A stretch of DNA of 40,203 bases, taken from the NCBI GenBank assembly GCA_944383515.1, contig CALWPV010000081.1, forward strand, positions 1 through 40,203, written 5' to 3'. Below the pieces are notes generated by a model, which saw only the letters and a program-made list of their open reading frames with translations, searched no databases and was not told the DNA's origin. The translations under genes were made by a program, and so were the position numbers. The DNA is from an uncultured Clostridia bacterium. GTDB taxonomy: Bacteria > Bacillota > Clostridia > Lachnospirales > Bianqueaceae. Below, one piece after another: positions 13,901-16,611 of this stretch. Each line of letters opens with the position of its first letter. The first letter of the stretch is position 1.

Positions 13901-14275
13901 GGCAATGAGGGTTCCCTGCCCGTATAAATTCACTTCCGGTAAAGAGCGGGCCGGTTCAATGCAGGCGTCTAATAAAGGCGTGGCCGCGTTAAGAAGCAGC
14001 CCTTTAGGTTTCTCCAAATATTCAATTTCAGGAAATAGCAGCGCGGCCTCAATTTGGGGCGGCGTTAGCATAATAATCGCGTATTGCTCCGTTAAAATTT
14101 CTGGCGCCGGCGCGCCAAGACGGGCGGCGACACTCGCTATATCCCCGTGATAGCGGACAATAATCTCCCACAGGTTTTGCAGCGGGTTATAGCCCACCCG
14201 CAGCATGGGAGAATTTTCAATTTCGGTGCCGGTGAGTGAAAGTGCAATGCTTAAATCGGTATCCATCTGCGTCAT
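10919..14275 (-). CDS. Tandem subtilisin-like protease, Csp-like, two catalytic units
   Basis: A cytoplasmic-type protein of 1118 residues with no signal peptide, built from two S8 subtilase units. Unit 1 has a prodomain-like N-terminus (about 1-110), Asp128 (DSGID), His193 (GHGTHVAG), oxyanion Asn291 (AAGNQG) and Ser498 (SGTSMAAP). Unit 2 starts after a linker (about 580-675) and has Asp686 (DSGIQ), His740 (GHGTYVAG), Asn855 (PAGNEG) and Ser1055 (SGTSAAAA). Both contain the insert seen between the Asn and Ser blocks of clostridial Csp germination proteases. The layout resembles C. difficile CspBA, in which the CspA half has lost its catalytic residues; here both halves keep them. The start at 14275 has AGGGAG 8 nt upstream; the open frame upstream lacks homology-like sequence and covers a divergent promoter. 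The germination role is inferred, since no SleC or CspC is in the window. Confidence 0.85.
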   Translation of the reverse strand: MTQMDTDLSIALSLTGTEIENSPMLRVGYNPLQNLWEIIVRYHGDIASVAARLGAPAPEILTEQYAIIMLTPPQIEAALLFPEIEYLEKPKGLLLNAATPLLDACIEPARSLPEVNLYGQGTLIAVLDSGIDYTHPDFIDEEGRSRILYLWDQTGGPEPPPPGFSRGSLYSQELITAALSDPALVPQQDLIGHGTHVAGIAAGGNSGVAPKAELLIVKLADSDGYGFSKTTSLMRALQFVVRAANELARPVAINMSLGTNDGGHDGFSLFETFIDDMATRGRNAIVVAAGNQGNARFHTTFSLATGEVRPVEFRLGPLQTSLTIQLWKNFTDEVTLAVTTPGGRSTGQILTGGPVFHASLDGTTISVYASPPSPYTAASSIMVELSGTPLTPGLWTLTLQAGTIVEGRCNLWMTASEAQREQTYFLTPSEETTITLPSTTFRTISVAAYDSATGAIASFSGRGFTRTNAMVKPDLAAPGVDITSSWPGGRYQMLSGTSMAAPFVTGCAALLMEWGIVHGQDPFLYGQRLKAYLLKGARRREGDVYPNPDFGYGTLCFGAALEAAYEGGAQTPSVPVLAQAPETCADLVQSEEYLSIITDNAYQPALENQCRLDLGTGQFLNFYRLPAGGDAATSYSFFNLNRIPVLYGLAADFSNQLALESSGIGPLSRRPFNPLTGSGVLIAVIDSGIQYRHPAFRRADGSTILAGVWDQENNRTYTQEEIQQALDRDEVLPITDPVGHGTYVAGIAAGQPDPETGFSGAAIGSELVCVKLRPAKENLRQFYGVSADVPAYASYDIILGIQYALRLAEELRRPLVLLLPLSTNIGAHNGSDPVEQFLSRLAGATGLCAVVPAGNEGASGKHYRGTLTAEDIVEFFVAEGESSVFLNIWGTSPDVMTLSLDSPLGNTLERLPLSAMRINQYPLPREASRVSIRYYNQGAPLAYIRIDFPTPGLWRLHVYGDSIVSGPYDIWLPIQSFSRPETRFLKPAPEVTITIPGTQTRIITVGGYQPLIGSLYENTGRGPNRYGLLRPTLVAPAIDIYGPTGASYRALSGTSAAAALTAGAAAQFLQYGIVQGNEPEMNTLTIQARMIRCAARRLDLSYPNEQWGFGTLDVSLCL

Positions 14276-14349
14276 ATGGGTATCTCCCTGTCCAGTGTAT
14301 GTGCTACAGTATATGCGCTCTAAGCGCCAAATTTGTGCGAATTTAAAGG

Positions 14350-14380
14350 TTGACAGTATAGAAAACAGTCGGTATACTGT
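14350..14380 (+). promoter_or_regulatory. Consensus promoter overlapped by an inverted-repeat operator
   Basis: TTGACA (14350-14355) and TATACT (14373-14378) are separated by 17 bp. ACAGTATA (14353-14360) and TATACTGT (14373-14380) form an 8-bp perfect inverted repeat that overlaps both hexamers, an arrangement typical of repression. A third ACAGTATA copy lies at 14306-14313, towards the divergent protease gene. Confidence 0.8.
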
Positions 14381-14414
14381 TTTTAATAGAAAAATAGAGG
14401 AATAAGGAGCGGTT

Positions 14415-15158
14415 ATGACTACGGAAGAGCAGCTGCAGCTTGCCATGCAAAGGGCCAGAGGGCGGCTGCGCGAGGGCATAGGGACGCAGAGTGAGCGGCT
14501 TGTGCATAGCACATTAAAGTATTATTTGGAACCGGATGAAAGCCGTCATGAAATCAAGATTGGCCATTTTGTTGCCGACATCTTTAAGCGGGATACGGGG
14601 CAAATTTTTGAGATTCAGACCCGCAGCTTTGACCGATTGCGTGCGAAGCTAACGGCCTGGCTTCCAGAATATCCGGTTGTCGTTATTCACCCCATTGTAC
14701 AGACGAAATATCTGTGCTGGGTTCACCCGGAAACGGGCGAAGTGGTGTCGCGGAGAAAATCGCCCAGGCAGGGGCGGCCGGTGGACATTTTACGTGAAAT
14801 ATACCGGCTTCCTGAGCTGCAAAATCACCCCAACCTCAGTTTTATGGCCCTTATGTTTAATGCCGAAGAATACCGGCTGCTAGACGGATATAGCCGGGAT
14901 CATAAAAAAGGTTCGCACCGGATGGAGCGGCTGCCGCTTTCTATTGAAGAGCAGGTCTGGATTCGCAGCGCTGGGGATTTTGCGGCCCTGCTCCCTGTGT
15001 TACCCACGGAATTTACCAGAAAAGAGCTGGCAAGCGCCGCTCGTCTTTCGCCGCAGGCGGTTTCTTATGCCGTAAAAGTATGGGAGAGGGCCGGCAGTAT
15101 TGAGAAGAGCGGAAGGCGCGGCCGGCAGTATGTATATCAGCGAGGAAATCATGTATAA
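14415..15158 (+). CDS. Nuclease-like (PD-(D/E)XK-type) protein with C-terminal HTH, unknown role
   Basis: A 247-residue protein whose family I cannot name. An N-terminal helix is followed by a strand pattern with conserved-looking acids: Glu27, Asp55 (FVADIFKRD) and Glu66-x-Gln68 (FEIQTRSF). This fits a PD-(D/E)XK nuclease core with Gln in place of Lys. Residues about 195-240 (TRKELASAARLSPQAVSYAV) look like a winged helix-turn-helix with a basic tail (SGRRGRQY). ATAAGGAG lies before the ATG. Its stop overlaps the pncB start by 8 nt, so the two are translationally coupled. The promoter carries a palindrome, so autoregulation by the HTH is plausible. DNA binding is likely; catalysis is uncertain. 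Confidence 0.7.
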   Translation: MTTEEQLQLAMQRARGRLREGIGTQSERLVHSTLKYYLEPDESRHEIKIGHFVADIFKRDTGQIFEIQTRSFDRLRAKLTAWLPEYPVVVIHPIVQTKYLCWVHPETGEVVSRRKSPRQGRPVDILREIYRLPELQNHPNLSFMALMFNAEEYRLLDGYSRDHKKGSHRMERLPLSIEEQVWIRSAGDFAALLPVLPTEFTRKELASAARLSPQAVSYAVKVWERAGSIEKSGRRGRQYVYQRGNHV

Positions 15159-16611
15159 CAATCAAAATCTAAGTTTATTAACGGATCTGTATCAATTAAC
15201 AATGATGCAGGGATACTACCGATATGGTAAGGCAGATAAAATTGCGGTGTTCGACCTCTTCTTTCGGGAGAATCCGTTTCAGGCTGCCTTTTCGGTAACG
15301 GCCGGACTGGATCAGCTCATTGACTATATTGAGAATTTGCAGTTTACCGAAGAGCAGATTGCGTATTTGGCCGGACTGGAATTATTTGACGAAGATTTTT
15401 TAAATTATCTGCGCACGTTTCGCTTTACCGGCGAGATATACGCGGTTCCGGAGGGAAGCGTGGTGTTTCCGGGAGAACCGTTGGTACGGGTGAAAGCGCC
15501 CATTATGGAAGCGCAGTTGATTGAGACGACCATGCTGTGCCTTATCAATCACCAGAGTTTAATTGCAACAAAGGCCGTGCGTGTTACGTACGCCGCAAAA
15601 GGCGATCCGGTTATGGAATTTGGCCTGCGCCGCGCGCAGGGGCCGGACGCGGGTACGCTGGGAGCCCGGGCCGCCGTGATTGGCGGGTGCATCGGTACCT
15701 CGAACGTGTTATGCGCGCAGCTTTTTGACATTGCGCCGAAGGGTACGCATGCGCATAGCTGGGTTATGAGTTTTGACAGCGAATTAGAAGCCTTCCGGGC
15801 ATATGCCAAGCTGTTTCCGGATATGTGCATTTTGTTGGTAGATACCTATGACACACTGGGGTCTGGCGTGCCCCATGCCATTCAGGTGTTTAAGGAAATG
15901 CGGGAGGCTGGCATTTCTTCCAAAATGTACGGCATTCGGCTTGATAGCGGCGATTTGGCATATTTGTCGAAAGAGGCGCGGAAAATGCTGGACGACGCAG
16001 GTTTTGGCGACGCGATCATTTCGGCGTCTAGCGATCTGGACGAATATCTGGTACGGGATTTGAAGCTGCAAGGCGCTCAGATTAGCTTATGGGGAATTGG
16101 TACAAAGCTTATTACCGCTCAGGACAATCCTTCATTTGGCGGCGTGTATAAAATGGCGGCCGAATCGACGGAAAGCGGCCAATTAAAAGCTAAAATTAAG
16201 TTGTCCGATAACCCGGCAAAGGTAACGAATCCTGGATATAAAAAGATTTTGCGTATTTACGATAAAAAAACCGGAAAACTAAAAGCAGATTTAATTGCGC
16301 TGGACGACGAGCAGTACGACGAGAGCCTGCCGCTGACCATTTTTGATCCGGCGCATACCTGGAAGCGAATGACCTTTAAGGGCGGAGAGTATACGCTGCG
16401 AGAAATGCTGCAGCCCGTCTTTATTCAGGGGCGCTGCGTCTACGAGCGTCCGAGCGTTAGCGAGATTCAAAGCTATTGTCAAAGCGAGCTAGATACACTG
16501 TGGCCGGAAAGCCGCCGGCTGGTAAATGCACAGACAATTCCGGTAGACTTGTCGCAGCCTCTGTATGACTTAAAAGAGCAGATGCTGCATGAGCATGGAA
16601 AAGAAATGTAA
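15151..16611 (+). CDS. pncB: Nicotinate phosphoribosyltransferase
   Basis: A 486-residue enzyme of NAD salvage, joining nicotinate to PRPP to give nicotinate mononucleotide in the cytoplasm. The N-terminal LLTDLYQLTMMQGYY, MEFGLRRAQG with the conserved Arg residues, GGCIGTSNV and THAHSWVMSF (containing the phosphorylatable-type His) are all family signatures. The chosen start, ATG at 15151, follows GAGGAAATC and overlaps the upstream gene's stop by 8 nt. A longer frame from 15100 has no Shine-Dalgarno and would add non-family sequence. It stands in a long co-directional run of genes. Its direct coupling to a DNA-binding-type protein is unusual and may indicate control by that protein. Confidence 0.95.
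   Translation: MYNNQNLSLLTDLYQLTMMQGYYRYGKADKIAVFDLFFRENPFQAAFSVTAGLDQLIDYIENLQFTEEQIAYLAGLELFDEDFLNYLRTFRFTGEIYAVPEGSVVFPGEPLVRVKAPIMEAQLIETTMLCLINHQSLIATKAVRVTYAAKGDPVMEFGLRRAQGPDAGTLGARAAVIGGCIGTSNVLCAQLFDIAPKGTHAHSWVMSFDSELEAFRAYAKLFPDMCILLVDTYDTLGSGVPHAIQVFKEMREAGISSKMYGIRLDSGDLAYLSKEARKMLDDAGFGDAIISASSDLDEYLVRDLKLQGAQISLWGIGTKLITAQDNPSFGGVYKMAAESTESGQLKAKIKLSDNPAKVTNPGYKKILRIYDKKTGKLKADLIALDDEQYDESLPLTIFDPAHTWKRMTFKGGEYTLREMLQPVFIQGRCVYERPSVSEIQSYCQSELDTLWPESRRLVNAQTIPVDLSQPLYDLKEQMLHEHGKEM

Follow-up and report, generated by a model that had tools for sequence, protein, structure and literature searches.

A conserved protein of Clostridia predicted to join a PD-(D/E)XK-type nuclease domain to a winged helix

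Proteins in which a PD-(D/E)XK nuclease domain precedes a winged helix have been described before. According to the accessible part of the source, DpnI, Psp4BI and FcyTI are built in this order (PMC11037411), and COG5482 is presented, in the portion of its source available to us, as an E-CD-ELK nuclease followed by a C-terminal wHTH (PMC1189080). The same source places SfsA (PF03749) among the PD-(D/E)XK proteins and describes an N-terminal OB fold, an ID-EVK motif and a role that is unsettled (PMC1189080). Two further points of comparison are DUF2161 (PF09929) and, for the winged helix, the MarR/ArsR-type proteins CadC, MarR and CzrA.

Here, we describe a gene from an uncultured Clostridia bacterium whose product is predicted to share this domain order. 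It lies in a stretch of 40,203 nucleotides, hereafter the window, which is one whole contig of a 2.34-Mb draft genome; its features are collected in Table 1. DpnI and its relatives resemble the protein in size as well as in the order of the two domains, and COG5482 proteins, of about 230 aa, have the same order. Since the accessible text already describes COG5482 in this arrangement, the PD-(D/E)XK plus winged-helix architecture is not new. DUF2161 proteins are of comparable size and carry an E..D..ExK pattern, against E..D..ExQ in the window protein, while only the winged helix of ~60 residues (184-247) is common to the MarR/ArsR-type proteins. The protein family itself appears to be undescribed, as no paper on it was found in the literature searched, outside which subscription journals largely fall.

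Table 1 Features of the locus and the evidence for each
Feature	Position	Strand	Evidence or remark
Csp-type double subtilase, divergent, upstream, 1118 aa	10919..14275	-	Peptidase_S8 E 5.2e-66, CspB_prodomain E 1.9e-18
Third ACAGTATA	14306..14313	-	Minus-strand TATACT (14313-14308), putative -10 of the divergent subtilase gene
Sigma-A type promoter TTGACA-17-TATACT	14350..14378	+	11/12 consensus; hexamer positions and spacing kept in sister genome G008
Inverted repeat ACAGTATA-N12-TATACTGT	14353..14380	.	Palindrome of the first-pass annotation; probably no conserved operator
Second inverted repeat AAAACAGT-N6-ACTGTTTT, overlapping the first	14362..14383	.	Missed by the first-pass annotation
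Shine-Dalgarno AAGGAG	14404-14409	+	Precedes the 247-aa nuclease-like gene
Gene for the PD-(D/E)XK-type plus winged-helix protein	14415..15158	+	247-aa ORF; orthologues; model pLDDT 95.0, pTM 0.90
Nuclease-like domain, residues 21-183	14475..14963	+	Invariant residues; domain model pLDDT 92.9; top match among solved structures SfsA, Z 7.0
C-terminal winged helix, residues 186-243	14970..15143	+	MarR_2 E 1.6e-4 (below cut-off); CadC Z 8.1, 63 residues, rmsd 2.2
pncB, nicotinate phosphoribosyltransferase	15151..16611	+	NF006695 E 2.7e-199

The whole protein was modelled with AlphaFold using 78 sequences. The confident model predicts an N-terminal PD-(D/E)XK-type core, then a MarR/ArsR-like winged helix at the C-terminus. 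The alpha-beta-beta-beta-alpha-beta arrangement of the core is formed by H25-38, E45-49, E52-58, E63-67, H72-82 and E88-103 in the full model, and appears again when the domain is modelled alone. In this layout the first helix bears E27, the three strands bear E46, D55 and E66-x-Q68, the following helix bears K78, and long beta hairpins complete the domain. Because a fold search with the whole model listed mainly the winged helix, we modelled the N-terminal domain separately. Among the matches then listed, E. coli SfsA was the closest (4dap; Z 7.0, 115 residues, rmsd 3.2), and rows 1-18 comprised SfsA, YaeQ, NucS/EndoMS, PaqCI, TseT/PA3907, XisH, AF2093, BamHI, OkrAI and BglII, an unrelated protein first appearing at rank 19. 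Nearly all of these 18 rows we take to be PD-(D/E)XK proteins, the superfamily labels, that of SfsA aside, being our assumption. The similarity is modest, which counts against a nuclease: the best Z is 7.0, and the tool warns that values below 8 may mean only a common arrangement, while Foldseek E-values for this domain all exceeded 0.07. The winged helix matched CadC, MarR and CzrA with Z up to 8.1. The two predicted domains thus agree with the first-pass annotation, which had proposed a C-terminal winged helix and, from an E...D...ExQ pattern, an N-terminal PD-(D/E)XK fold, although it had taken the latter to be reused as a sensor or regulator.

Searches at the sequence level placed the protein in no described family. 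Pfam and NCBIfam gave no match above cut-off, only weak MarR_2 and HTH_Crp_2 winged-helix matches near residues 193-242, and sequence searches of solved structures returned no significant relative of either the protein or its family profile. The nuclease part thus seems to match no known family in the searches made. Neither PF09929 nor PF03749 matched the window protein or the family members scanned. Profile comparisons of the family with DUF2161 and with SfsA using hhalign were not significant, but neither was the control comparison of SfsA with DUF2161, so that these results carry no information on a relation. DUF2161 is encoded in 19/199 genomes of the phylum (loci L196-L210) and was not found in the window's own genome (G000); the two families may be alternatives. 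SfsA is likewise missing from this genome, and five relatives carry both an SfsA gene and a window-type gene. The model contains no N-terminal OB domain: it opens with helices 3-17 and 25-38, and no beta domain precedes the nuclease core.

The likeness to SfsA speaks in favour of a nuclease or phosphodiesterase that acts on RNA or another non-DNA substrate, or of an SfsA-like protein of unclear activity, as the closest solved fold among those listed is that of a protein whose role is given as unsettled in the accessible part of the source (PMC1189080). Two further links point the same way. The C-terminus has weak profile similarity to ribosomal protein eS25 (E 0.05), and in one genome (locus L092; G449 C121, ORF 3-1595) the family protein follows a Cof-type HAD hydrolase (PF08282, E 1.6e-38) within a single open frame of 531 aa. 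This fusion, which a DNA nuclease would not predict, is a single case and could be real or an effect of assembly. Both links are weak or single, and no RNA-related neighbour recurs consistently, although an S1-domain gene lies downstream in 7/77 loci (from the best 80 of 267). We regard a non-DNA substrate as a minor possibility.

Conservation of the predicted active site was then assessed at two depths. Residues E27, H31, K35, E46, D55, E66, Q68 and K78 do not vary among the 39 sequences of the order, nor among the 78 of a wider set, made up of the window and 77 sequences from the best 80 of 267. Alignment A2 held 35 of the 39 order sequences after removal of near-duplicates, A3 the window with 77 of the 80 loci from named genomes, and A4 77 of those 78. 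The acidic catalytic residues are thus present together with a lysine or its substitute (E27, D55, E66-x-Q68 and K78). Glutamine at position 68 replaces the classical lysine, which counts against a nuclease; the same ExQ is present in BglII, and the charge of the absent lysine may be provided by K78, which sits on the following helix. Reuse as a sensor should have cost the domain some of its active-site residues, so that their invariance in every orthologue compared favours a working nuclease over a dead fold, and the part of the first-pass annotation that proposed such reuse was not supported. Furthermore, conservation along the protein is highest in the nuclease core (mean entropy 1.15 bits), and the recognition helix of the winged helix is among the least conserved (2.27 bits). 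This pattern would be more typical of an enzyme whose tail binds DNA in general than of a factor that recognises a single fixed sequence.

Taken with the predicted fold, these observations lead us to consider it probable, with some reserve, that the protein is an active metal-dependent DNA nuclease of PD-(D/E)XK type whose winged helix grips DNA, and that it acts as a stand-alone chromosomal enzyme of Clostridia in genome maintenance. The winged helix would carry the protein to DNA, or hold it there; E27, D55, E66 and Q68, with K78 from the next helix, would hold the metal and activate water; and the PD-(D/E)XK-type domain would cleave DNA in a metal-dependent manner. Its role would most likely be in DNA repair, recombination or the processing of unusual DNA structures.

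The gene was found in 38/196 genomes of the order, including the window's own, and in 17/19 genomes of the window's taxonomic family. Outside these strongholds it is patchy, with 26/291 genomes of the class and 12/398 of the phylum (counts that include the window's genome and a few others already counted), which speaks against a maintenance nuclease. A scan of named genomes gave 267 related stretches; the best 80, which were kept, come mostly from Lachnospiraceae and other Clostridia, many of them from gut or rumen. In a tree built from the 39 sequences of the order, the branching agrees for the most part with taxonomic families: the window's family forms a clade, clades are likewise seen for f24 with f7, and f2 and most of f6 group together. 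Three long-branched outliers, L048 (f2), L061 (f6) and L066 (f5), with weak support among them, count against this. Because the tree mostly follows taxonomy, the family appears to have been mostly vertically inherited. No relative was found in 50,697 phage records, in 72,556 plasmid records or in one scan of viral contigs, and PADLOC matched none of the three members submitted (0/3). A mobile or defence gene was rejected on these grounds.

The distribution also bears on a second alternative, a modification-dependent (type IV) restriction enzyme resembling DpnI, in which the winged helix would recognise adenine methylation in incoming DNA and the PD-(D/E)XK domain would cleave it. Its domain order would be that of DpnI, Psp4BI and FcyTI as given in the accessible text (PMC11037411), and the patchiness of the gene outside its core group would be in keeping with it. 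The window protein nevertheless differs from DpnI in its ExQ motif with the lysine on the next helix and in its mostly vertical inheritance. Restriction genes usually spread laterally. Mainly vertical descent, the near-core presence in the window's family and the absence from phages, plasmids and PADLOC results make a restriction role less likely, and no DpnI model was among the Pfam matches of 35 members at E 0.01, although the two may still be remotely related. Overall, we judge such an enzyme unlikely.

We then examined the region upstream of the gene, where the first-pass annotation had noted a palindrome spanning the -35 to -10 of a consensus promoter and had read it as the protein's own operator. 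Both the palindrome and the promoter are there, the latter with near-perfect hexamers (TTGACA at 14350-14355 and TATACT at 14373-14378). Three copies of ACAGTATA occur in the window, at 14306-14313 (+), 14353-14360 (+) and 14373-14380 (-), against 0.49 expected, and three were reached in 1/100 shuffles. The copy facing the divergent protease gene, reported earlier as a third half-site, does exist but coincides with a TATACT that appears to be the -10 of that gene, for which no convincing -35 was found. In the 2.34-Mb genome, ACAGTATA-N10..14-TATACTGT occurs once, and TATACTGT is not enriched, with 61 matches against 88 for the reversed control. When the 150-bp upstream region was shuffled, 2.6% of the resulting sequences contained a perfect 8-bp inverted repeat with a loop of up to 20, and 0.6% contained at least two; with the promoter hexamers held fixed, 4.1% of shuffles had such an 8-bp repeat and 2.0% had one overlapping the promoter. 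On the single sequence, with a chance of 2-4%, the palindrome is not beyond doubt more than chance. Much of it is made up by the promoter itself, as ACA comes from TTGACA and TATACT is the -10.

Comparison with orthologues was made on 119 upstream regions (the window, 38 order loci and 80 named loci, which stem partly from the same genomes), with start codons chosen by script. Removal of regions shorter than 100 nt, and of those that shared their final 80 bases, left 104 distinct regions. The motif ACAGTATA-N0..20-TATACTGT was present in 1/104, the window alone, and absent from the 103 others; across 195 loci it was found in three, all copies of the window itself. The second repeat, searched as AACAGT-N2..10-ACTGTT, was in none of the other distinct regions of this set. 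Some 8-bp repeat exists in 19/104 regions, with no sequence common to these. The sister genome G008, the sole other genome available from the window's genus (two in all), retains the promoter with a 17-bp spacer and 12/12 consensus (TTGACA and TATAAT), but has ACAGGTGA and TATAATAA where the window has the palindrome arms ACAGTATA and TATACTGT; at the third half-site it keeps AGTATATGCG and not the full ACAGTATA. An operator conserved across orthologues was consequently rejected, and the palindrome probably arose by coincidence in this lineage, superimposed on a strong promoter. The orthologues keep the HTH and lack the palindrome. Furthermore, in 31/79 named loci (from the best 80 of 267) at most 45 nt separate the start of the gene from an upstream gene in the same direction, which leaves little room for an operator of its own.

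These results weigh on a transcription factor that would bind the palindrome over its own promoter and repress itself and pncB, its nuclease fold being inactive and serving as sensor. Transcription regulators are numerous among proteins with MarR/ArsR-like winged helices, and the winged helix here resembles theirs; the low chance expectation of the palindrome, the overlap with pncB and the missing NAD repressor, both detailed below, also lend it some weight. An autoregulated factor of this type would combine two things that are found here unequally: the winged-helix domain is present, and the operator upstream of orthologues is not conserved. The loss of the palindrome in the sister genome with the promoter kept, the invariant catalytic residues, the variable recognition helix and the rarity of pncB next to the gene all speak against it, and we hold a dedicated regulator to be quite improbable. 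In short, the first-pass annotation did well on the protein and was over-optimistic about the promoter.

The start of pncB, as read from the sequence, overlaps the stop of the nuclease-like gene by 8 nt, and the two genes may be translationally coupled. In the window's genus an ordinary housekeeping promoter would transcribe them together, a matter of neighbourhood and not of shared function. Besides the window, pncB adjoins the gene in just 2/38 other order-level loci, those of G008 and G030, and is among the downstream neighbours of 1/77 named loci (from the best 80 of 267), this one (L104) being, by position, the contig of one of those two order loci. A general partnership with pncB was rejected on these counts. 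The earlier statement that no regulator of this architecture had been described next to pncB stands insofar as no described family was found, whereas the functional tie to pncB it implied does not. The window's own genome gave no match to the NAD repressor NiaR (3H domain) although pncB is present, and control of the two genes by NiaR was therefore rejected. No Rfam family was found at 14000-15400, where a riboswitch or leader RNA was looked for. The divergent Csp-type protease has two subtilase domains in one chain, both with DSG, GHGT and GTSxAA triad motifs by eye, and the sister genome encodes a full-length relative (1130 aa, 69% identical). In the C. difficile CspBA fusion the second half is a dead protease, from which a double active enzyme would differ.

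Across named loci (from the best 80 of 267), the commonest Pfam family accounts for 6/73 upstream and 7/77 downstream neighbours, in scans that omit 8 neighbours longer than 900 aa. Neighbours recognised by Pfam matches or by eye include rhomboid/AI-2E, arginine biosynthesis, gyrase, spore germination and S1-domain genes and many more. Since neighbours differ and none is conserved, the gene appears to be self-sufficient. No DNA-repair gene is a consistent neighbour in these loci, which counts against a nuclease. A GyrA cluster lies within three genes in 14/80 of them; we read this proximity as shared ancestry and rejected GyrA as a functional partner. In four related rumen genomes (L100-L103) the gene is divergently adjoined by a HerA-like helicase (HerA_C, PF05872). 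The pair recalls the archaeal NurA-HerA system, in which a nuclease gene stands beside a HerA-type ATPase, although the four cases are not independent. As a partner, the helicase was rejected: it makes up 4/73 upstream neighbours, and every case is divergent and belongs to this set of related genomes from the rumen.

Finally, the protein could do two jobs in the window's genus: besides acting as a nuclease, it would bind the lineage-specific palindrome through its winged helix and so keep pncB and its own promoter repressed until damaged DNA required it elsewhere. We consider this very improbable; were it true, NAD supply would be tied to DNA repair. The palindrome itself is unlikely to matter. 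What the locus offers instead is a conserved, undescribed and probable nuclease, predicted for hundreds of Clostridia from gut and rumen; its predicted active site is clearly defined and its DNA-binding domain intact. This small protein may be an enzyme of DNA maintenance that had been missing from these Clostridia.
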